Positions 1,548 to 32,894 of a stretch of DNA of 64,000 nucleotides are shown one piece after another; the first letter of the stretch is position 1, and the number at the start of each line of letters is the position of its first letter. A model generated the notes under the pieces. The model ran no database searches. It was not told where the DNA came from and saw only the letters and a program-made list of their open reading frames with translations. The translations under genes were made by a program, and so were the position numbers. This stretch comes from Gammaproteobacteria bacterium (GTDB lineage: Bacteria > Pseudomonadota > Gammaproteobacteria > Arenicellales > Poriferihabitantaceae). The stretch lies in contig JAUILZ010000002.1 in NCBI GenBank assembly GCA_030432755.1, positions 1 through 64,000 of the forward strand, in the 5' to 3' direction.

Positions 1548-4500
1548 TCACGCGGTTTCCGTGGAGGATTCCGTGCTCTTCCCTGTCTTTGCCTTTGCCT
1601 TCTCGTGAAGGTGTTCCGGGTGCACCAGTGAGTAGATCACCGGAATCAGCACCAGTGTCACCAGGGTGGAGACGGTGAGGCCCCCGACTACCGCGCGCGC
1701 CATGGGCGCCTGGGCGTCGGCGCCTTCGCCGTAACCGAGCGCGAGGGGCAACAGGGCGAGGATGGTGGTGAGGGTGGTCATGAGAACCGGCCGCAAGCGC
1801 CGCCGGCCCGCCTCGAGCAACGCCTCGCGGGTCGGCATGCCGTCTCGCCGGTACTGACCCGTCTGGTCCACCAGCAGGATGGCGTTATTCACCACTATTC
1901 CCCCAAGCATGATACAGCCGATACCCGACTGCAGGTTGAGGGTGGTGTCGGTGAGGAACAGCGTCACCAGCACGCCGGTCGCGGCGAAGGGCACCGAGAA
2001 CATCACCACCAGCGGGTCTATGAAGGACTCGTACTGCGAGGCGAGCACCATGTACACCAGAGCCAGCGCCAGGATCAGTGACAGCATCAGTTCCTGGAAC
2101 GCTTTCTCCTGTTCCTCGAAGCTGCCGGAGATGTTGAGTTCGTAGCCAACCGGTCGCGGTATGGTGTCGAGTCGCGCCTGGATATCCGCCGCCACCGAAC
2201 CAAGGTCGCGTTCGTCGACGTTGGCGCTGACGCTGATGATCCGCTGCTGGTCCTTGCGCTCGATGGTCACCGGTCCGCTGCCACGCACCGTGGTTACCAG
2301 GTTCCTGAGCGCCACCAGTTCACCTTCCGGGGTACGCACAACGAGGTCGAGGATCTCGTCCAGCGAACGCCGTTCGGCGTCCTCGAGTTGCACCAGGATG
2401 CGGTAGGAATTGCCTTCGACGCGGTATTCCCCCGCCACCGACCCCGCCACCGCGGTTTCCACCACCTCGGTGACGTTGCGCACGCTGAGGCCCAGATCCG
2501 CGGCCTTCGCCCGGTCGACGATGATCTCCTGCTGCGGGATGCCGGCGTCGCGGCTGAGTCTTACGTCCGTGATTCCCGGGATATCCCGGATGCTTTCCTG
2601 GACCTTGTGCGAGAGCGCGCCGAGTATGTCGAGCTCGTAACCGGTGACCTCCACCGTCACCCCCTCGACATCGGGCAGTATACGCTCCAGCAGGAACTGG
2701 CCCTGGGGGGCGCGTACCCGGATCTCCATGCCGGGAATGGTGCCTTCGAGCGCGGCGCGGATGTCGTTGGCGATTTCGGTATTGGAACGGTCCCGCTCCG
2801 CCGCCGGCACCAGCGACATGCGGATCTCGCCGGAGGCGTTGGAGCGACCGAAGGTGCCGGAGGTCTGCACGCTGGTCACCGAGGACACCGCCTCGGGCAC
2901 GAGCTTGAACACCTCCTCCTCGAGGATCCGGGTCTGCGCGTCGATGAGGTCAATACGCGTCCCCACCTCCATCTCGCCGGTGATCCTGACCTCGCCCTCG
3001 TCGCTCGGCGGAATGAACTCGGTGCCGATAAAACGATAAAACTGCAGGCTCGCGCCAAAGATCAGCGCGGCCACCAATAGCGTGAGCAGGCGGAAGCGCA
3101 GTACGAAACCGACGAAGCCGGTGTAGACCGATTCAAGCGAGCTCAGAAACCAGCCGGAGCCCTTCGAACCGGCGCTGCCGCCCAGCATGCGCGAGGCCAT
3201 CACCGGCACCAGGCTGAGGGAAACCAGCAAGGCGCAGAACAAAGAGAACATGATCACGTAGGCGAGTTCCTTGAACAACACCCCGGAAACCCCCTGGACG
3301 AAGATCAGCGGCAGGAAAATCACGAGGGTGGTCACCGTGCCCGCGAGCACCGCGGAACTTACTTCGCCGGCGCCGCGGATCGCCGCGGTCGACGGGTCCT
3401 CCTTCTTCTCCTGCTTTCGCCGGAAGATGTTTTCCAGCACCACCACGGAACTGTCCACCATCATCCCCACGCCCAGGGCGAGGCCGCCGAGCGACATCAG
3501 GTTGAGGGTGAAGCCGCCGACGTAGAGCATGGCGAAGGTGGCGATCACCGAGATCGGGATCGCAAGGGAGATCACCAGGGTACTGCGCAGGTCGCGAAGG
3601 AAGAACAGCAGCACCAGGATCGCGAGCGAGCCACCATAGAGCACCGACTGGGCGACATTGAAGATCGCGCGCTCGATGAAATTGCCCTGGTTGATCACCG
3701 GGATGACCTGGATCTGGGGAAAGTCCTCGTTGATCGCCTCCACCTCGGCCAGCACCTGCTGCGCCACCTCCACGGTGTTTTCACCGGGCTGTTTGCGGAT
3801 CGCCACGCGCACTCCCTGTTCGCCGTTCACCCGGATGATGCGCGAAAGCACCTCGTAGGTGTCCACCACCCTGGCGATCTGTCGCAGGGTGACTACCACC
3901 CCGTCGCGCCGCCCCACCACGGTATTCCGGATCTGCTCGAGGTCCGTGAACTCCGCCGGCGCGCGCAGGGTCATCTGGAAACTGCCCTCCTCGATCTTGC
4001 CCGCGGGCAGGTCGAGGTTTGCGTTGCGGATGGCGTCGAGGACGTCCTGCAGAGGCAGACCGAGGGCATTGATACGCGTCGGGTCGAGTTCCACCCGCAC
4101 CTCGCGGTTGAATCCCCCCCAGGGATCCACCTGGGCGACACCGGGAATGCGCGAGAAGCGATAGCGGATCTGGTTCTCGACGATGGTGGTGAGTTCGATG
4201 GGATCGAGCTTGCTCGAGATTCCGAGCAGCACCACGGGGAAGCTGTCGACGTCGAACTTCGACACCCGCACGCTGCCGACGTCGTCCGGCAGTTCGCTGA
4301 TCTCGTCCTCTATCGTGGCGCGCACCTCCAGCGCGGCGGTCTCGACGTTGGTGCCCCAGGCGAAACTCACCCGCACCCGGCTGTTTCCCTCGTAGGACCG
4401 GGAACTCATCTCCACCACCCCGGGAACGGTGGCGACGATCTCCTCCACGATCTGGGTGACGAGCTGTTCCATCACCAGTGGATCGGCGCCGTCGTAACTG

Positions 4501-7949: not shown

Positions 7950-9059
7950 GTGCTACCGCCAGTGGCTACTCACGCCCTGTCTCCATCCGGTCGTCACCTG
8001 TTGCTGTTGACCCGGGGACATACCGACTTTACCAACCAGATCGACCCGTTCGAAATCCACGCGGCGCAACTTGCCCGACGGGAGATTCATGTGCGCAAGG
8101 CACTCTGGGATGCGCCCCTGGCGGACGATGTGCTGGACTTTCCCTGGACCGCGGTGCTGTTTCACTACCGTCTGTCCCGCGAGTACCCGTTGCCATGGCT
8201 CGCGGGACTGCTTGCCAACCTGAGGGAGTTGGTGCCCGGTTGTCCCATTGTGCTGCTCGACGACCACGGCAGTCCCTATGTCCCGATGATGCGGCTTTCA
8301 AACCTGGTGGATCTCTACGTCGCGGAGTGCCTGCCGCGTGACCGTCGCTGGTGGAGTACCACCGGCAGTCACTGGGAACGGCCGCTCGAGCACAGGCTGC
8401 GGCGCATCCTGGACGATCCCCCTGAAGACCCGGCACCCTATCGCGCGGAACCGGAAGGACCGCTGCCGGCGAATTTCCACCTGGGCTGGAACATCGCGCT
8501 CGATCGGCGTTATTACTCGGAATACAATCATCCCGCGGGATGGAACCGCCCCGCGGAAGATCGCCCCAATGCCATTCACTGTCGCATCGGCGTGGACCCG
8601 GACATGCCGGATATCCTGCAACGTCATCGACTGCGCGCCCTGCAAGCATGCGGCGCGCTCGCCGGCAATCATGCGGTGATCAGCAGTCCGGAACGCATCC
8701 CGCACGACGATTACCTGCGCGAGATGCTGGATAGCCAGGCAGTTCTTTCACCCTATGGCTGGGCCGAGGTCTGCTTCCGCGACTTCGAGGCCATCGCCTG
8801 TGGAAGCCTAATGATCAAGCCCGATATGTCCCACCTGGACACAGCTCCGGACATCTACCACGACGGGGAAACATGCGTGATCGTTCGCGCTGATTTCGGC
8901 GATCTCGAGGAAAAGCTCATCCACTATGCAAGCCGCCCCGATGAACGCACGGCGATCGTGCGAAACGCCCATGAACGGTTCCGGGAATTTCTCGGCGACG
9001 ACTGGTTCGCGAACCAGGTCTGTGCACTACTCGATCGACTGGTGGAACTGCGCCAATAG
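7950..9059 (+). CDS. Glycosyltransferase family 1-like protein
   Basis: About 369 residues. The C-terminal third looks like the nucleotide-sugar-binding half of a GT-B enzyme (Glyco_trans_1_2 type): SPYGWAEVCFRDFEAIACG followed by a DMSH...YHDGETCV segment, the usual pattern for this region. The N-terminal half is divergent and contains a motif-poor receptor domain. Donor and acceptor are unknown. The start is uncertain: the frame is open far upstream with no ATG near, and GTG codons at 7950 and 7962 are the first plausible starts, neither with a clear ribosome binding site. It opens the accessory glycosyltransferase island. Confidence 0.7.
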   Translation: MLPPVATHALSPSGRHLLLLTRGHTDFTNQIDPFEIHAAQLARREIHVRKALWDAPLADDVLDFPWTAVLFHYRLSREYPLPWLAGLLANLRELVPGCPIVLLDDHGSPYVPMMRLSNLVDLYVAECLPRDRRWWSTTGSHWERPLEHRLRRILDDPPEDPAPYRAEPEGPLPANFHLGWNIALDRRYYSEYNHPAGWNRPAEDRPNAIHCRIGVDPDMPDILQRHRLRALQACGALAGNHAVISSPERIPHDDYLREMLDSQAVLSPYGWAEVCFRDFEAIACGSLMIKPDMSHLDTAPDIYHDGETCVIVRADFGDLEEKLIHYASRPDERTAIVRNAHERFREFLGDDWFANQVCALLDRLVELRQ

Positions 9060-9291: not shown

Positions 9292-9882
9292 ATGAAAGAT
9301 GTGCACCGCAAACCGGATTCACCGGAAGAAAAATCAGTCAACGAAACGCGATCACAGGACAGGGAAAAAGCACGCCGTCGGCTGCTCCGCAATCTCGCCG
9401 CCGGCGGTGGCGTGGCGGCGCTGGGGGCGGCCACGCCGGACAAGTGGACGCGCCCGATGGTGGATTCCGTTCTCCTGCCAGCCCATGCATCCACCTCCGT
9501 GGTACAGAGTTTTACCGGCGCCGTGGCGACGCCGTTTGCTTCGGACGATGGCACCATCCTCGACTTCTTCGTCTCGAAAGCCTACGCGGCGGAATGCAAC
9601 GGGATCACGTTGCCGGAAGCCAACACGCCGGTCTGCATCCAGGAAACTCTCTCTGGTGTACTGATCACGTTTCTCGGAGGTTCCGGTTTCGGCACCCTGG
9701 CGCAGCTTGGATCCGGGGGCATTGGCGTTTCCGCGGGCGGTCTCGCCTATATCTTTTCCGGCTCCCTGACCAGTGGACAGATCAACGTCTCCTGTGGCGG
9801 CGGTGGAGGCGGCAAGTCGAAAGGGGGCGGAGGCACCGTGCGGACCTCCAGCTATGCAAGCGTGCCTGGCGCCTGCGCCTGA
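9292..9882 (+). CDS. Twin-arginine-like secreted peptide with Gly/Cys-rich tail
   Basis: A 196-residue protein of unknown function. Residues 1-30 are highly charged. An RRRLLRN stretch then precedes a short Ala/Gly-rich segment, resembling a Tat signal or a leader. Next comes a conserved-looking motif, DKWTRPMVDSVLLPAHAST (about residues 50-68), which I recall from other proteobacterial proteins of unknown role. The middle carries two cysteines (AAECNG, PVCIQ). The C-terminus is low-complexity: a cysteine, six glycines, a second glycine run and a terminal GACA. AAGGGAG seven bases before the ATG supports the start, and a strong terminator follows. Next to a PqqD-containing enzyme it could be that enzyme's peptide substrate (inference). 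Confidence 0.65.
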   Translation: MKDVHRKPDSPEEKSVNETRSQDREKARRRLLRNLAAGGGVAALGAATPDKWTRPMVDSVLLPAHASTSVVQSFTGAVATPFASDDGTILDFFVSKAYAAECNGITLPEANTPVCIQETLSGVLITFLGGSGFGTLAQLGSGGIGVSAGGLAYIFSGSLTSGQINVSCGGGGGGKSKGGGGTVRTSSYASVPGACA

Positions 9883-9914
9883 TAGTTACACGGAGCGCTT
9901 GACTCAACTCCCGG

Positions 9915-9938
9915 GGCCCGGCAATGCCGGGCCTTTTT
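9915..9938 (+). terminator. Rho-independent terminator
   Basis: GGCCCGGC (9915-9922) pairs with GCCGGGCC (9926-9933) around a three-base loop and is followed by five T residues (9934-9938). It ends the transcript of the secreted-peptide gene. It has no T-run on the minus strand, so it does not serve the convergent gene. Confidence 0.85.
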
Positions 9939-9975
9939 CGTAGCGCGGACGGCACGGCCGGCCAAACACAGCGTA

Positions 9976-12180
9976 TCAGGCCGGCCGGAGCGCCGCGAGC
10001 CGCGCGACCCAGGGCGCGTAGATCCCCAGCCGGCTGGCCTCGCGGAAGAGAACCCGGGCGTCCATCCAGTCCGCCCGGTTGATGCTGTCGGCCGCCAGCG
10101 CATCGTCTATGGCCTCGTCGGTGAATCCCGGCCCGAGAAATGAAGCGTCTGCTCCTGCCACCCGCGCCATCAACCCGGTCATCACGCACTTTACACAGGT
10201 GCCGCAATTGGTGGCCCGGTGACCCTCCTGCCAGCACACCCGCAGGTTCGTCAGCGCTTCCGGCCACGAGGCCAGGTGGCGCATTTTATCCAGCCGGTTC
10301 AGGTGTGCGCCGTCGTGCACGATGGTAAATCCGTCGCGGCCCATCCAGGAATCGGTGAGTGGATTGCTGCCCCAGGGCATCATCGCGTTGTAGGCGAAGG
10401 TAGAGGGAATGAGGCCGTGGGAACAGCCGCGTGAGAGCAGGGTGAGGCAAGCGGCGGCGGCCAACCCGTGGGCTTCCGGCCACTGGCGGTTGAAGTCCCG
10501 CAGGTTGGTGGTCATCTCCTCCAGCGCCACCCCTTCAATCGGCATGAACCGGCGGATCCGCTCCAGCGCCACGCGCCAGGTCGCGCGATCCTCCCAGGGG
10601 ATGTCGAAGCCGCGCACGACGAGCGCGGTATCCATCCGGAAGCGCGCCGGTTCTTCCCCTATAATGGCATGACGGTAGACAGTCTCGCAGGAATCCAGCC
10701 CGCCGGAGAAGCAACTGATCGCGCGCTGTTCCTGACTGTCCGCGGAATCGTCCAATGTCTCGCCGACGATCGAAATGACCGCAAGATCGGAGTTCCAGCA
10801 ATGCCATGCACGCTGGTACTCCCGCAGGTTGTATAGCAGCGAAGCGGAAACCGGCGCGCCGCGCACCCACAGGTCGTCGCCGGACGCCATGCAGCCGTAC
10901 AGGCAGGCGAGCACGAACGGATCCGCGGTGCCAACCAGCCGGTCGCGTAGGCGGCCATCGACCTCGAACCAGAGTTCCCCCACGTCAACGACGTCCGTCG
11001 CCAGGGTCGCGCACAATCGCAATCGACCACCGACTTCCCGCGGCGACTGGATCGTCAGGACCCGCATGCCTGGACGTCGCCTGACCGAGCGCGCGACGGG
11101 ATTGTCGTAGGGGGTCAGCAAGCCCTTGTTCCAGTATTCGCGGGCAAACCGGTCGACGCTCGCGGCTGCCTCGCCGGCCGGAAGCCGGTCGTCTGTGATC
11201 TCTCGGGCAAGATCGCGGAAGCTGCGTTGGCCATCCATCAGCGACCAGATGCGCAGCGAGGTATCATCCGGTCGCGCCAGGATTTCGCCCTCGGCATCCT
11301 GGAAAACCACGGCCTCCCCGCCCGCTGCCCGGATTCCCGTCATGGCCGCGGGACGCGCACTCCAATCGATGCGCCGGGACTCGTAGCCCGCCACTTGCTC
11401 CCCCAGGGCATGGCGTACCGGCACGGGATCGAAATCGATGCCGTGGAGATCGTCGCGCCAGCCGCAGCCGAGCTCGGCGAGCCAGCTCTCGTACATACCA
11501 CGATTCTTGTGATAGCTGTTGGGCAGCAGGGTGGCCTCGCGACCGATCAGGAGCGCCGCGACCGCGAAATGCAGTCGATCGGTAATGACATGGGCGCACG
11601 TCGCCGCCAGTCCCATGTACTGGTCCACGGTCTCGCAGCAGCGGACGGGGTCCACCACCGATCGCGCATCGTCGACGAACAGGCCTTCCTGGTTGGTGCG
11701 CAGGAAAACACCGAGCGCGAAGCGCGGGGAACCGGGGTCCCAGGGGTAGTCCACCGCGAGCGCGGTATCCGGGCCGAGTCCCGTAACGCCGGCGAACTGG
11801 AGGCTGTAGCGCTCGCGCGCCCACACGCCTGCATATCGTGACAGGTCCTCGCCGGGCCCGGTGATACTTTGAGGCAGGATATACAAGGGCCGACCGGTCT
11901 CCAGCGCCAGTTCCCGAAGTTCCACCGGTTCCGGGTAAGCCGGGCCGAGATTGCCACCACCGGAAACCACGATGGCTTCGACCCGGCTCATGTGCCTGGC
12001 ATCGAACAGGCGACGCCAGTCGAGCTGGCGGTAATCAATCTCCCAGCTATCGAACAACTGGCGCGCGCCGAGATCGATGAGACGGTCACCGACGTTGCCC
12101 GGCAGTGGCAGGAAGCCGATGCGCAACCCGCGAAAATGTTCGACGACTTCCCCGAACGCCGCGTGATCAACCAGTGGCAT
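9976..12180 (-). CDS. Tripartite pyruvyltransferase-like / PqqD-like / PP-loop ATPase protein
   Basis: A 734-residue multidomain protein. Residues 1-280 resemble polysaccharide pyruvyl transferase (CsaB/ExoV type): PLPGNVGDRLIDLGARQL, VVSGGGNLG, YILPQSITG and TDRLHFAVAALLIG. Residues 288-352 resemble PqqD, the fold that binds peptide leaders: RPDDTSLRIWSLMDGQRSF then a helix ending in YWNKGLL. After a beta-rich linker, residues about 490-680 form a PP-loop ATP pyrophosphatase: SGGLDS near 492, VVRGFDIPWED, and a C-terminal NCGTCVKC that could bind zinc or a cluster. The pattern recalls an uncharacterised PP-loop family with a GFDI and NCGxCxKC signature. It overlaps the upstream glycosyltransferase gene, so the two are coupled. 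The start is ATG 12180 or 12192. Substrate unknown. Confidence 0.75.
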   Translation of the reverse strand: MPLVDHAAFGEVVEHFRGLRIGFLPLPGNVGDRLIDLGARQLFDSWEIDYRQLDWRRLFDARHMSRVEAIVVSGGGNLGPAYPEPVELRELALETGRPLYILPQSITGPGEDLSRYAGVWARERYSLQFAGVTGLGPDTALAVDYPWDPGSPRFALGVFLRTNQEGLFVDDARSVVDPVRCCETVDQYMGLAATCAHVITDRLHFAVAALLIGREATLLPNSYHKNRGMYESWLAELGCGWRDDLHGIDFDPVPVRHALGEQVAGYESRRIDWSARPAAMTGIRAAGGEAVVFQDAEGEILARPDDTSLRIWSLMDGQRSFRDLAREITDDRLPAGEAAASVDRFAREYWNKGLLTPYDNPVARSVRRRPGMRVLTIQSPREVGGRLRLCATLATDVVDVGELWFEVDGRLRDRLVGTADPFVLACLYGCMASGDDLWVRGAPVSASLLYNLREYQRAWHCWNSDLAVISIVGETLDDSADSQEQRAISCFSGGLDSCETVYRHAIIGEEPARFRMDTALVVRGFDIPWEDRATWRVALERIRRFMPIEGVALEEMTTNLRDFNRQWPEAHGLAAAACLTLLSRGCSHGLIPSTFAYNAMMPWGSNPLTDSWMGRDGFTIVHDGAHLNRLDKMRHLASWPEALTNLRVCWQEGHRATNCGTCVKCVMTGLMARVAGADASFLGPGFTDEAIDDALAADSINRADWMDARVLFREASRLGIYAPWVARLAALRPA

Positions 12181-13357
12181 GGCTACGGACATCCTCCCCG
12201 CGACGCGACGCGGCGATCCGCGCGGCATGTTCCAGCGCCTCGCAGGCCATTCTGCCGTTATAGCGCCAGTCGTCCCGCGGATCGGCCAGGCGGGCACTCA
12301 TCATCCCACGCCTGGCAAGTTCGTCTGCAGGCAGTTCGAGGAGCGCGCTCAGCTTTGCCGCGAGGTCGGACTCGTCACCGGTGCGGAACACCTGGTCCGC
12401 GGGTAACCGCAGGTCACCCTCCTCCACCATCACCTCGCTGATGAACACGGGTTTCGCGTAGGCCCTGGCCAGGTTGTAGACCCCGCTCTGGATACCCTCG
12501 AGATAGGGCAGCACCACGAGGTCGCAGGCGCGGAACAGGGTCTCGATCTCGTCGGTCCCAAGGTGCCTGGTGATGCGTTCGACATCGCTGCACCCGGCGG
12601 TGATGCGGGCATCCTCGGCGTGCCAGCTTTCGACCCTGTGATGCTCGAGGTTGGTATGACAGACCAGGCGCGTGCCCGGATGCCGACGCCGGACTTCGCG
12701 AAACGCGCGCACCAGCAGGGACACGCCCTTGCCTGCCCGCGCCATGCCGAAGTTCAGCAACATCCGCTGGTCACGTGCGAGGCCGAGTGACGCCCGCGCG
12801 GCATCCCGGGTCACGGTGTTCCTGGCAAGCAGGTGATAGGCCGGGTGCTTCGCCACCCGGATACGCTCCGCGGGTATGCCACTGAAGGCGCGCAGGCGCG
12901 ATTTTTCCCGCTCACTCGCCACCAACACCGTATCCAGCAATGCGTACTGACTGCAGAGCCGGTCCATGGATACGCCCTGGTCGGAAAATGGCATAACCTC
13001 GTGCAATACCGCGCAGATACCCATACCGGCTTCCCTCATACCGGCCATCAACTCGCTGTAGAACGAGGTGAACACCTTGCTTCGCTGCGCCAGGTGCAGT
13101 AGCGCCACCGTGGAATCGAGATCGCAGGCCGCCTGGACCATGCTGACGATGCTTTCCCGGTCGTCGACGTCCAGTACTTGCCGGTATCCGATGCCGACGT
13201 CTTTCCAGAGGGTGTCCACCAGGTCTTCCCGATACGTGAGCGCGGTGGGGCGGAAGCGCTCCGCCAGGATGGACCACTGGTGCGCGAGATATACGGCCAG
13301 ACCCCCGTCACTTGCACAGACGACGGGCAAGGCAGGCTTGGGTGGTTGTAGAGTCAA
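12167..13357 (-). CDS. Glycosyltransferase, GT4-like
   Basis: A 396-residue GT-B-fold glycosyltransferase candidate. The second half has the retaining GT4 features: LLNFGMARAGKGVSLLVRAF (start of the donor domain), a segment ending in DLVVLPYLEGIQSGVYNLARAYAKPVFIS that corresponds to the ExxxxG/S donor-binding loop, and a short alpha-helical tail. The N-terminal acceptor domain is divergent but has HEVMPFSDQG and a predicted Rossmann pattern. Its last 14-26 bases overlap the start of the tripartite gene, so they form a two-gene operon; the enzyme may act on the same product. Donor and acceptor cannot be read. Confidence 0.78.
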   Translation of the reverse strand: MTLQPPKPALPVVCASDGGLAVYLAHQWSILAERFRPTALTYREDLVDTLWKDVGIGYRQVLDVDDRESIVSMVQAACDLDSTVALLHLAQRSKVFTSFYSELMAGMREAGMGICAVLHEVMPFSDQGVSMDRLCSQYALLDTVLVASEREKSRLRAFSGIPAERIRVAKHPAYHLLARNTVTRDAARASLGLARDQRMLLNFGMARAGKGVSLLVRAFREVRRRHPGTRLVCHTNLEHHRVESWHAEDARITAGCSDVERITRHLGTDEIETLFRACDLVVLPYLEGIQSGVYNLARAYAKPVFISEVMVEEGDLRLPADQVFRTGDESDLAAKLSALLELPADELARRGMMSARLADPRDDWRYNGRMACEALEHAARIAASRRGEDVRSHATG

Positions 13358-13506: not shown

Positions 13507-14337
13507 ATGTCCCGCCAGGACCGCAACGACCCGTTCGCGCGCCGCGACCTGACCCTGATGCTCTGCTCGCACAGCCGCGCGCATTGCCTGCCGGGCCTGC
13601 TCGAGCGGCTCACCGCGCAGGATTATGAGGGCAACGTCGAAGTCATCCTGTGGAACAACAACTACGCCGACCGCGAGATCCTGGACGCCGTGGTGGACGA
13701 TTTCGCGCAATCCCTGGACATCCGCCTCATCCATTCGCGAAACAACTACTACTGCGCGCCCCGCCTCGCGGCGCCGGCCCTGATGCGCAGCGACATGCTG
13801 CTGGTCTGTGACGACGACGTGCTCCCGGAGCCCGGGTACATCCGCGGGTTTCTCGACGCCTACCGGGAGCTTGGGCCCGAGGCGGTGCTTGGCGCCACGG
13901 GTCATATCTTCCTGCCACTGCCCGAGGATGACGCGGCGCCGGAAGAGGTGATCTGGCGCAATCCCGGGCACCGTCTCTCGTTGCGCCAGAAACATGCGAC
14001 CAGCCGGGTACATTTCCTGCATGCCAACAACTATCTCGTCCCGCGGTCGGTGCTGAGCCGGCTGGCGACCCATACCCCGCCCAGCCCCGACTTCGTCCTG
14101 GTGGACGACTACTGGATGTCCTACGTGCTCGATCACGTCATGGGGGTGCCGCTCTACAAGATCCAGAGCGACCACCTGCTCACCTTCGACCCGTCGGCGG
14201 ACGACCCGGAACGGGCGTTGTGGCTGAATCCGGAGGTCGTGGCACGCAAGCTCGCGTTCTGCGCATGGCACCTCGCGCGCGGATGGCCGGATTTCAGCCG
14301 CGACCTGGCAGCGAGCTATCACGCCGGTAGCGCCTGA
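13507..14337 (+). CDS. GT-A-fold glycosyltransferase (GT2/GT64-like)
   Basis: A 276-residue protein with a GT-A nucleotide-sugar fold: an opening beta strand (DLTLMLCSHSR), a VILWNNN segment, the metal-binding CDDDVLPEPGYI (about residues 99-110) and an acidic LVDDYWMSYVLDH (about 198-210) that would hold the catalytic or second acidic site. The DDD motif together with the late DD is reminiscent of exostosin-like GT64 enzymes as well as GT2. No membrane anchor is visible, so it is likely cytoplasmic. It is the only plus-strand gene between two minus-strand transferase genes, and its 3' end overlaps the neighbouring gene by 19 bases tail to tail. Confidence 0.72.
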   Translation: MSRQDRNDPFARRDLTLMLCSHSRAHCLPGLLERLTAQDYEGNVEVILWNNNYADREILDAVVDDFAQSLDIRLIHSRNNYYCAPRLAAPALMRSDMLLVCDDDVLPEPGYIRGFLDAYRELGPEAVLGATGHIFLPLPEDDAAPEEVIWRNPGHRLSLRQKHATSRVHFLHANNYLVPRSVLSRLATHTPPSPDFVLVDDYWMSYVLDHVMGVPLYKIQSDHLLTFDPSADDPERALWLNPEVVARKLAFCAWHLARGWPDFSRDLAASYHAGSA

Positions 14338-15443
14338 GCGCGCGCGCGGCCGACCACCTCGCGGCAGACCCGGTCCATGGCGGACTTGCCGGCAAATTCG
14401 CTGACAAACTCCCTTCCCGCTTTGCTCATACGTCGCCAATCGTCCGGATTGTCGTGGGCCGCCGCCAGGACTTCGGCAAAATCCCCGGGATCAGCGGCGA
14501 CGTGCATGTCGGAAAACGGCGCGAGCTGGGCGGCGATCAGCGGCGAAACCACGAGCGGCAGCCCGTGGGCCATGGCCTCGAGTCCTTTCCAGGGCAGTCC
14601 GCCGGCAATCAACGTGGGAATCACGAACAGCCGCGCGCGAGCATAGAGGGGAGACAGCTCGGGCACGAATCCGAGCATTGTCAGGCCATCCCGCGAGGCG
14701 CCCGGCGGCAGGCGGAGCGTGTCGGTACCGAACCCCGCCACCGACAGCGCCAGGGGCTTGCGCCGTCGCACCCGGGGGAGGATGTCGCCAACAAGCAGGT
14801 TCACCACGCGCTGGGTCGGGTGGCGCGGGTAGTTGCCGTTGACGAAAAGGATGCCACTGCGTTCCGCGAAGGGCGGTAGCAACGACGGCAGCGCGAGCTC
14901 GCCCGGCAACACCTCTACCGGCGCGGTGCGATGCAGGCGGATGAATTCCCGGTCCCGGGGTCCGGCGCAGACCACCAGCGGAGCGTCCCGGTACTCCGCC
15001 ACCTCCGCGGCCAGCATATTCTCTTCGGCAGCCGGGCTCACGTCGTGCCCCCGCGCCCGCGCCAGTTCCGCATCCCGGGGAGCGGTAACGGCCTCGGCAT
15101 CGAATACCCAGGACGCGTTACCGCCGATCAGCCCCGCCTCGCGAAGTGGCGCAAGATTACGCCGCCGCGACACCCAGACGAGATCGTATCCCGGCACGCG
15201 ACGCGCGAGCGCGGGCAGGGATCGGGCAATGGATTCACCCTCCCCGCCGGCCAGCCTCGCCCCGGTGTCGTTGAGTTCCCGCAGACGCGCCGGGGGCGGT
15301 GGGGCCAGATCCTGCAATGCCAGGAAATCCACCACGGCGCCCGCACGTACCAGTCCACGCAGGATGGACAGCGCCCGGGGAAATCCATAACCGAGCCCGG
15401 CCCCCGGCACGGCGTCGTCGCAGAAGAGAATACGCGGCTTCAC
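14319..15443 (-). CDS. Glycosyltransferase, GT-B fold (GT4-like)
   Basis: About 374 residues. The C-terminal donor domain is recognisable: ILFVNGNYPRHPTQRVVNLLVGDILP, a central LGFVPELSPLYARARLFVIPTLIAGGLPWKGLEAMAHGLPLVVS block and a DPGDFAEVLAAA helix, all characteristic of GT4-type enzymes. The N-terminal half contains LFCDDAVPGAGLGYGFPRA, a glycine-rich acceptor-domain loop. I choose a GTG at 15441-15443 because it lies directly after the stop of the upstream gene (15448) and the protein then begins with a beta strand; the frame is open to 15554 but that part overlaps the upstream gene. Confidence 0.75.
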   Translation of the reverse strand: MKPRILFCDDAVPGAGLGYGFPRALSILRGLVRAGAVVDFLALQDLAPPPPARLRELNDTGARLAGGEGESIARSLPALARRVPGYDLVWVSRRRNLAPLREAGLIGGNASWVFDAEAVTAPRDAELARARGHDVSPAAEENMLAAEVAEYRDAPLVVCAGPRDREFIRLHRTAPVEVLPGELALPSLLPPFAERSGILFVNGNYPRHPTQRVVNLLVGDILPRVRRRKPLALSVAGFGTDTLRLPPGASRDGLTMLGFVPELSPLYARARLFVIPTLIAGGLPWKGLEAMAHGLPLVVSPLIAAQLAPFSDMHVAADPGDFAEVLAAAHDNPDDWRRMSKAGREFVSEFAGKSAMDRVCREVVGRARAQALPA

Positions 15444-15447
15444 GATG

Positions 15448-16632
15448 TCAGTCTGGTGGTCGCGGACGCCACGGCGGAAAGTCGACCACGCCGGCAGCGT
15501 TGGCAGCGCCGATGAACGCGTCCAGCATCCCGAGCGCTTGCATGTAGCGGACACCCGCGCGCTCCGCGTGCAGCACGGCGAGCTGCTGGACGTTCAGGTT
15601 TCCGTCGAGCCGGTCACGGAGCCAGTGCAGCTCAGGCGGCAGCAACGGCATTGCCCCCGCGGGGACTACCCGGGGGCGCCGCGCCAACTCGACAGGATCG
15701 CGGCGCGGCTCCCGCGGCAGGGTGAGGGTCGAGCTTCCCGCGCGATACGCCGACTCGCCCGGGCAATAGGTATCCAGCCGGGGATCATGAATATCGATCC
15801 GCATACCGCCGGACTCCAGGAATTCCTGCAGACGTGCATGTTCCGCGAGCCGCCATGCCTCGCCGGCGGTAGCCACGCCCACCGGCCGGGCCTTCATCTC
15901 CCGGCTGCGTCCGTGCACCCCGGCGGACCACTTGTAATGATCCACCGTCACATGCGCCAGCGCGGCGGGACAGCCCGTGCCGTTCAGCGCGTGGTGCTGG
16001 CCCTCGGTGAGGCGCACCCCGGGTCGGATGAGCGGTACCTTGTACTTCCAGGCGCCCATGATCGCACCGGTAATGTCCGCCACCAGCGGAAACTGTCCGG
16101 CCGGATCGCCGGATGACAGTTCCGCGAGTTCTCCATCCGCGGTGACGCGGTCCCGCAACATGCCGCAGACGTAGTCGTAACCGTCCTGCGCGCACAACGC
16201 GATCAATTCGTCGAGCGCCATGGGAAAGCGCGGGAACTCGTCGAGATCGCTGACGACCACCCAGTCCGCGTTGCCGCAACGGCTTGCCAGGCAGCGCTCG
16301 CGCCGTGCCACAAGTCCGTCGTAGTGACCGGAATGGACATTGGCGATTTCCGCGTCGAACGCCCGCGCACGGCGGTGCAGGTCCCGCAGCGCGACCGTGT
16401 CATCTGCTGACCGGAGATGCAGGTCCAGCAGGATTCGATCGACTCCCTGGGTCCTGGCCCAGGCAAGATGGGCCTCGAGCAGCCCGGTATCCGGGCCGAC
16501 GGGAATATAGGCGAACAGCGTCAACGGAGCGGATTCATGATTCGCGGTGGTTCGAATGGACGGCGCCGCAGGCGGACCGTTGGAAGTTGGCGGCGCGCCT
16601 GCCGGATACGTTACCATCCGGGCCCGCCGCAA
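15448..16632 (-). CDS. Glycosyltransferase family 2 (Glyco_tranf_2_4-like)
   Basis: A 394-residue protein. From about residue 36 it matches the Glyco_tranf_2_4/GT92 pattern: LFAYIPVGPDTGLLEAHLAWAR, a long helix, VVVSDLDEFPRFP with the metal-binding DxD, then HVTVDHYKWSAG. The N-terminal 30 residues are Pro/Ala-rich and probably disordered, so the true start may be later. The last 60 residues (LDGNLNVQQLAVLH ... AAGVVDF) have a helical rhythm like that of a PqqD/winged-helix domain, a weak resemblance. It ends five bases before the next gene starts and is divergent, 13 bases apart, from the oxygenase gene at 16646. Confidence 0.72.
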   Translation of the reverse strand: MRRARMVTYPAGAPPTSNGPPAAPSIRTTANHESAPLTLFAYIPVGPDTGLLEAHLAWARTQGVDRILLDLHLRSADDTVALRDLHRRARAFDAEIANVHSGHYDGLVARRERCLASRCGNADWVVVSDLDEFPRFPMALDELIALCAQDGYDYVCGMLRDRVTADGELAELSSGDPAGQFPLVADITGAIMGAWKYKVPLIRPGVRLTEGQHHALNGTGCPAALAHVTVDHYKWSAGVHGRSREMKARPVGVATAGEAWRLAEHARLQEFLESGGMRIDIHDPRLDTYCPGESAYRAGSSTLTLPREPRRDPVELARRPRVVPAGAMPLLPPELHWLRDRLDGNLNVQQLAVLHAERAGVRYMQALGMLDAFIGAANAAGVVDFPPWRPRPPD

Positions 16633-32057: not shown

Positions 32058-32894
32058 TCAGGGTCCGGGTTCTTCCCTGGTGGCAGTAGTCGCGGTAACG
32101 GCGGAATCGGCTTCCGCTGGCTCTTCCTCTTCGTCCGCGTCTTCCTCTTCAGCTTCTTTCTCCGCCTGCTTGCGGGCGATGAAACGCGAGGCATGGACGC
32201 CGAGCTCGAACAGCAGCCATACCGGCACCGCCAGCAATGTCTGCGAGAAGATATCCGGCGGGGTCATCAACATGCCGACCACGAAGGCGCCAATGATGAT
32301 GTAGGGGCGCTTCTTCACCAGGTCGTCCGGCGTGGTGATGCCGAGCTTTACCAGGATCACCGTCGCCACCGGCACCTCGAATGCCACGCCGAAGGCGAAG
32401 AACAGCTTGATGACGAAGCTGAAGTAGGCGTTGATGTCGGTCATCACCTGCACACCTTCCGGCGCGCTGTTGGCGAAGAAGGCGAAGATGATGGGAAACA
32501 CCGCGAAGTAGGCGAACGCGATGCCAAGGTAGAACAGCAGGCTGCTGGATACCACGATGGGCAGCGCGAGCCGCTTCTCGTGCTGGTAGAGGCCCGGCGC
32601 GATGAACGCCCAGGCCTGGTAAAGAACATAGGGAATCGCGATGGCGAAGGCGCAGGCGAAGGCGAACTTGAACGGCACGAAGAACGGGCCGTGGGGCTCG
32701 GTGGAGATCATGCTGTTGCCTTCCGGCAGGGCCGACATCAGCGGACGCGCCAGGATCTCGTAGAGTTCGTTGGCGAAGGGCACCAGGCAGACGAAAATCA
32801 CCACCACCGCCAGGATCGCGCGTAACAGCCGGTCGCGCAGCTCCAGCAGGTGGGAGATCAGGGTGCCTTCACCCGTGGTGTTGTCCTTGCTCAT
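32058..32894 (-). CDS. tatC: Sec-independent translocase TatC
   Basis: A 278-residue polytopic receptor subunit of the twin-arginine translocase, which binds RR signal peptides. Family motifs: [16 protein letters not shown] at the N-terminus, [17 protein letters not shown] and [11 protein letters not shown]. Six helices are present. A charged C-terminal tail of about 40 residues ([11 protein letters not shown]) extends it beyond the 250-260 usual length. It is the last gene of hisBHAFIE-tatABC, six bases after tatB. Confidence 0.95.

Follow-up and report, generated by a model that had tools for sequence, protein, structure and literature searches.

The RRE is a peptide-binding domain. Several described systems come close to the genes reported here, the nearest being the RRE-dependent RiPP precursors, in which a conserved leader is joined to a variable following part and a PqqD-like RRE is fused to the modifying enzyme; RRE-Finder (PMC7470986) and PMC12710340 catalogue RRE-glycosyltransferase fusions as fusions absent from the known classes. 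The QueC-family protein modifiers QatC and Cap9 form a second group, and for QatC the analogy with Cap9 suggests that it modifies its partner QatB at the N-terminus, through a reaction that is unresolved (PMC13279940). Tat signal peptides are a third, with an RRxLLK motif, a hydrophobic stretch and an AxA site, and the fourth is hydroxyproline/mucin-type glycosylation, with prolyl 4-hydroxylase, the GT60 of Dictyostelium Skp1 and the plant HPAT (PMC8724618).

We analysed a locus of a marine bacterium in a window of 64,000 nucleotides (the whole stretch of DNA studied) in which a leader-bearing gene adjoins an RRE-containing enzyme. The conserved leader, the variable part behind it and the RRE enzyme encoded beside it are those of an RRE-dependent RiPP, the last of these in only a subset of the family. 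In contrast to such precursors, most of the candidate substrates are 100-400 aa long and share a Tat leader genome-wide, a kind of substrate absent from the passages of PMC7470986 and PMC12710340 drawn on here, and the protein described here, at 196 aa, is longer than a short RiPP precursor (below about 150 aa).

The 196-residue protein

The gene occupies positions 9292-9882 of the forward strand, with an ATG start and an intact ORF of 196 codons, and its product is a predicted leader-tagged secreted protein. The observation in the initial annotation was confirmed there: the 196 residues, a twin-arginine motif, WTRP...LPAHA, four cysteines (two in AEC...PVC and two in VSC...GAC) and glycine runs (GGGGGG and GGGG, close to the C-terminus). 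The twin-arginine motif RRRLLR (residues 28-33, 9373-9390; family consensus RRxLLK) precedes the conserved leader block WTRPMVDSVLLPAHA (residues 52-66, 9445-9489), which holds the first AHA, a probable first cleavage or docking site. A second AHA-type motif, ILDFFVSKAYA (residues 89-99, 9556-9588), matches a pattern written post hoc, and is followed by the presumed mature part of 97 residues with the four cysteines and a Gly/Ser/Thr-rich end (9589-9879). About 35 bases 3' of the stop codon lies an intrinsic terminator, in which a GC-rich hairpin is followed by a stretch of T, GGCCCGGC-AAT-GCCGGGCC-TTTTT (9913-9940, forward strand; -19.7 kcal/mol, z -2.2), as the proposal of a dedicated terminator had it; a simple terminator scan did not list this hairpin, though the sequence is plain.

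The protein matched no family in Pfam and, taken whole, gave only weak Tat-type matches in NCBIfam. Its single-sequence fold (pLDDT 38) was uninformative, plasmid records gave no match, and a literature search with the string LPAHA gave nothing relevant among the matches listed. The proposed Tat signal was recovered with model TIGR01409 (cut-off 16.7 bits), which the 50-aa leader piece matched at 19.8 bits and the whole protein at 15.0 bits; 16 of 36 family leaders also match. As for the tatABC products invoked for export, the tatC part was located at 32058-32894 on the reverse strand (PF00902, 1.6e-72). Both marks of a Tat substrate are thus present, the twin-arginine signal in the leader piece and TatC of the Tat machinery. 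The family leader has the motif, hydrophobic stretch and AxA site of other Tat signal peptides, and differs from them in a long c-region, nearly invariant as W..P......LPAHA and often repeated later as [IL]LDxL[VI]PxA[HY]A.

The leader family

The leader block defines a family of approximately 130 distinct proteins with mostly unrelated mature parts, in agreement with the earlier idea of a leader plus a variable following part. Seven more genes of the same genome are alike in the leader and little besides, and 23 of the 60 relatives searched carry it, for a total of 131 places (including a weak own-genome copy, C50) and at most 20 per genome; with these homologues, the leader motif of the 196-aa gene is beyond chance. 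Of 109 genomes from the order, 39 have the leader by profile search, as do only seven of 369 genomes sampled across the class, and the named records that bear it are Arenicellales, uncultured Arenicella, and unclassified gammaproteobacterial or proteobacterial MAGs. The consensus is xRRxLLKxxxxGGGxxxxxxxLPxxWxKPVVxSVxLPAHAQTT, or in short form RRxLLK...GGG...WxKPVV[DE]SVxLPAHAQT[ST]. The 100% conservation of the W and the prolines is partly by construction, since the collecting pattern fixes them; the pattern also allowed T in place of the H, and T was never found. Synonymous codons are fully mixed at the conserved leader residues. Selection on the protein thus maintains the motif, and the likeness is not that of recent copying.

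Tails after the leader range from 7 to more than 400 aa, a range that does not fit the small modified peptide first proposed; some are mutually homologous, some are Thr/Pro repeats and some are a mere stub. The Gly/Cys tail had been put forward as the core. As a conserved element it was rejected, the pattern being kept neither in the family nor beside the same enzyme, where the proteins at loci L053 and L206 have different tails. The second motif, [IL]LDxL[VI]PxA[HY]A, resembles the first (VVDSVLLPAHA) and lies 27-70 residues downstream. It is present in 36 of 107 tails and in 8 of 274 other proteins, against a mean of 1.75 and a maximum of 6 in shuffles, a figure that is optimistic as the pattern was fitted after viewing the tails. 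A third AHA-type copy was seen by eye in own-genome C55 and in L125, L131, L152 and L197, and the L025, L136 and L188 tails end in a domain that, again by eye, resembles the self-cleaving S74 chaperone of phage tail spikes. At L089:7750-8150 a short-tailed leader gene is followed in the same frame, beyond stop codons, by a Ser/Pro-rich stretch, as if it were a broken gene or a second ORF.

The neighbouring enzyme and its pairing with the leader

The adjoining gene (9976-12192, reverse strand, with an ORF that extends upstream to 12297) is convergent with the leader gene, and with the terminator between them the two are not co-transcribed. Its product models as a pyruvyltransferase, a leader-binding RRE and a QatC-like PP-loop enzyme in one chain, consistent with the tripartite, PqqD-containing enzyme named in the initial annotation. 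The alignment profile of this tripartite enzyme matches WbbZ, Pvg1p, PqqD and the lasso RRE TbiB1, and the AlphaFold2 model has a pLDDT of 72; the VIA-align result bears mainly on residues 21-252 and 487-654 and is weaker elsewhere. The pyruvyltransferase domain (11452-12168) passed the gathering score of PF04230 (41.4 bits against 25.3; 2.1e-10), and its nearest solved relative is the LPS-cluster protein WbbZ (6x1l, Z 19.2), with Pvg1p at Z 17.6. The predicted RRE (11110-11358) matches PqqD 3g2b (0.0018) and TbiB1 (0.0078) by profile, and in the model aligns to the TbiB1-leader complex 5v1u over 81 of 83 residues (Z 8.9). Against PqqD model PF05402 the enzyme scored 18.1 bits, below the gathering score of 23.4, while its L053 homologue reached 42.1 bits.

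The PP-loop half (9997-11076; model residues 373-732) aligns to QatC 9y02 over 296 residues (Z 18.2) and to QueC 3bl5 (Z 11.9). The motifs SGGLDS and CWx(8)NCGTCVKC are complete, the latter with cysteines shared by every sequence that covers them. The PP-loop fold, the SGGxDS motif and the Cys4 motif of the QueC family are all present; the match to the curated QatC model NF041925 was not significant (10 bits against a cut-off of 280, E 0.29). Unlike QatC and Cap9 (PMC13279940), this half is fused to a pyruvyltransferase and an RRE, and its presumed partner lacks an N-terminal MG(T/G)S. In the genome itself (83% complete) neither QueD nor a strong match to QueC was found; this result and the missing MG(T/G)S disfavour Cap9-like deazaguanylation.

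The tripartite enzyme was found in five of the 109 genomes. Three copies, from three taxonomic families, bear the RRE (the window, L053 and genome G440), and in all three the leader gene adjoins. At L053 the enzyme gene directly neighbours the leader gene on one strand, and the surroundings of the pair hold no glycosyltransferase; in G440 the two genes are convergent as in the window, and the enzyme is divided by the end of a contig (L206/L207). The two RRE-less copies (L208 and L209) have no leader gene in the 11.5 and 16 kb fetched. Small as the comparison is (three copies against two), an RRE that tracks the adjacent leader is what one would predict of a domain that reads it. The proteins beside the three RRE-bearing copies have three unlike tails, and for this reason no target residue can be named. 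The glycosyltransferase cluster beside the G440 enzyme contains a radical SAM protein (L207:429-1352) and, by eye, a SPASM-like fragment (3404-3652).

Gene neighbourhoods and sister loci

The 60 relatives searched for the leader were also scanned across their genomes for PqqD domains. Of the domains inside frames longer than 200 aa, eight lie within 2 kb of a leader, at seven loci, where 0.35 would be expected; at 5 kb the count is 12 against an expected 0.88. The Poisson figures for this excess are overstated because several matches come from one locus (G056:C6). Stand-alone PqqDs, found once within 2 kb and three times within 5 kb (0.38 and 0.96 expected), show no clear departure from chance; the suggested co-occurrence with PqqD therefore holds for domains fused into large enzymes and not for stand-alone ones. 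By hand count, six of the nine GT25 domains in frames of at least 500 aa lie within 5 kb of a leader, as do none of 26 in shorter frames. GT60-type proteins (PF11397) occur in few genomes, and in four of their six main loci a pair of them flanks a leader gene.

Context of 5 kb or more was available for 103 members. A glycosyltransferase-like or PqqD gene neighbours 25 of them but not the other 78, and thus the leader does not require such a neighbour. Mucin-like tails are found in 9 of the 25 against 7 of the 78, and the second motif in 14 of 18 members with such a neighbour against 19 of 68 without, a comparison that is soft in that the query set came from loci already inspected and the members are related. 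Pfam families of the immediate neighbours were rich in glycosyltransferases in one set (A3), with no such excess in the other (A4). Since the neighbour is found in 25 of 103 members and enrichment fails in one of the two Pfam sets, the enzyme association belongs to a subset of the family. Homologues that occur widely without a PqqD-like or PP-loop gene nearby had been named in advance as evidence against a modified product; this is largely what was seen, about three quarters of the members being of this kind. The family leader is first of all a common Tat export tag, and only a subset, the 196-aa gene included, is paired with putative leader-docking enzymes.

In sister loci, whose leader proteins often end in Thr/Pro repeats, PqqD-GT2-GT25 fusions lie near or beside leaders (L055, L056, L057, L061 and L211), and at L213 the same parts are split among genes. 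There, a tandem pair of leader genes, each with a long poly-Thr tail (L213:3238-4153), adjoins a GT2 with a weak C-terminal PqqD, a GT2-GT25 protein, a 93-aa PqqD and an NTP_transf_5 gene. In four other loci, one of them from the same genome (L046; the others are L065, L075 and L089), a single protein joins HPAT-type, GT60-type and 2OG oxygenase (prolyl 4-hydroxylase) domains, and in three of the four a Pro/Thr-rich leader protein stands beside it. The L046 oxygenase matches prolyl 4-hydroxylases at 4e-20 with an intact HxD...H...K. O-FucT and sulfotransferase genes were also seen near the fused protein in L046 (2997-14395, contig C10), L065, L075 and L089. Bacterial hydroxyproline glycosylation is a possible reading of these loci: the domain types are those of the Dictyostelium and plant systems (PMC8724618), whereas here they are bacterial, fused in one protein and tied to a Tat leader, and they belong to the sister loci and not to the window.

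Possible roles of the protein

On balance, at slightly better than even confidence, we regard the 196-aa product as a Tat-exported, leader-tagged protein and a probable substrate of an RRE-guided modifying enzyme. The leader of this Arenicellales-centred family would serve as an export signal and, in the subset only, as a docking tag for cytoplasmic modifying enzymes. The RRE of the tripartite enzyme would most likely bind the leader of the 196-residue protein, and the enzyme would then modify its mature part in the cytoplasm; sugars may come from the glycosyltransferases encoded nearby. After modification the protein would leave the cell through Tat, with a cut at LPAHA and possibly a second one at SKAYA. 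The gene, the leader family, the Tat-type signal, the conserved pairing of the two genes and, by model, the domain make-up of the enzyme are established; leader binding, any chemistry, the order of the steps and both cleavages are proposed here from sequence.

A somewhat improbable alternative is that the leader is a Tat export and processing signal only, that the family members are ordinary secreted proteins, and that the enzyme acts on something else. It agrees with the fit of the Tat model, with the second Pfam neighbour set and with the position of most members among housekeeping genes without modifying enzymes. Against it stand a WxKPVV[DE]SVxLPAHA conserved far past the needs of Tat, the excess of RRE-fused enzymes beside leaders, and the persistence of leader and enzyme side by side in three families, in one case with no other sugar genes.

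The window also holds glycosyltransferase genes on both sides of the pair, at 7953-9059 (forward strand, PF13524; the start is that used in the search and not an established start codon), 12167-13357 (reverse, family 4 type), 13507-14337 (forward, family 2), 14319-15554 (reverse, family 4 type) and 15448-16632 (reverse, family 2-like, PF13704, below cut-off), the assignments being by Pfam. A 2OG-Fe(II) oxygenase (PF03171; 16646-17437, forward) stands at the edge of the group, its membership of the cluster being uncertain. Five glycosyltransferases within 8 kb, and a first enzyme domain whose closest solved relative comes from an LPS cluster, would suit a surface-polysaccharide cluster in which the pyruvyltransferase half pyruvylates the polysaccharide, with the leader gene either uninvolved or coding for a surface protein of that envelope. 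We think this unlikely, as the RRE binds peptides, L053 has the pair without glycosyltransferases, and no polysaccharide polymerase or flippase was noticed near the locus in an informal look. That the Gly/Cys tail is a short core peptide modified and released as a natural product, as in a classical RiPP, is highly improbable: the leader/variable-tail logic, the RRE neighbour, the paired cysteines and members with tails of only 7-60 residues would accord with it, but the tail here has 130 residues, its Gly/Cys pattern is not conserved, and no RiPP protease or exporter was identified.

Modification of a leader-tagged protein before its export by Tat thus remains our preferred reading. A bolder form of it, which we offer tentatively and consider less probable, is that the shared Tat leader is a genome-wide docking tag by which different RRE-fused enzymes (glycosyltransferases, the pyruvyltransferase-QatC hybrid) decorate proteins before export, the 196-aa protein being the substrate of the first RRE-guided QatC-type protein modifier. 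For the RRE-glycosyltransferase fusions catalogued in PMC7470986 and PMC12710340, the family provides candidate substrates and a testable docking sequence. If the preferred reading is true, RRE-guided modification would come to include folded proteins exported by Tat besides small natural-product peptides, and the protein-modifying QueC branch would gain a setting outside phage defence. The sister loci, if read correctly, would suggest bacterial hydroxyproline or mucin-like glycoproteins.
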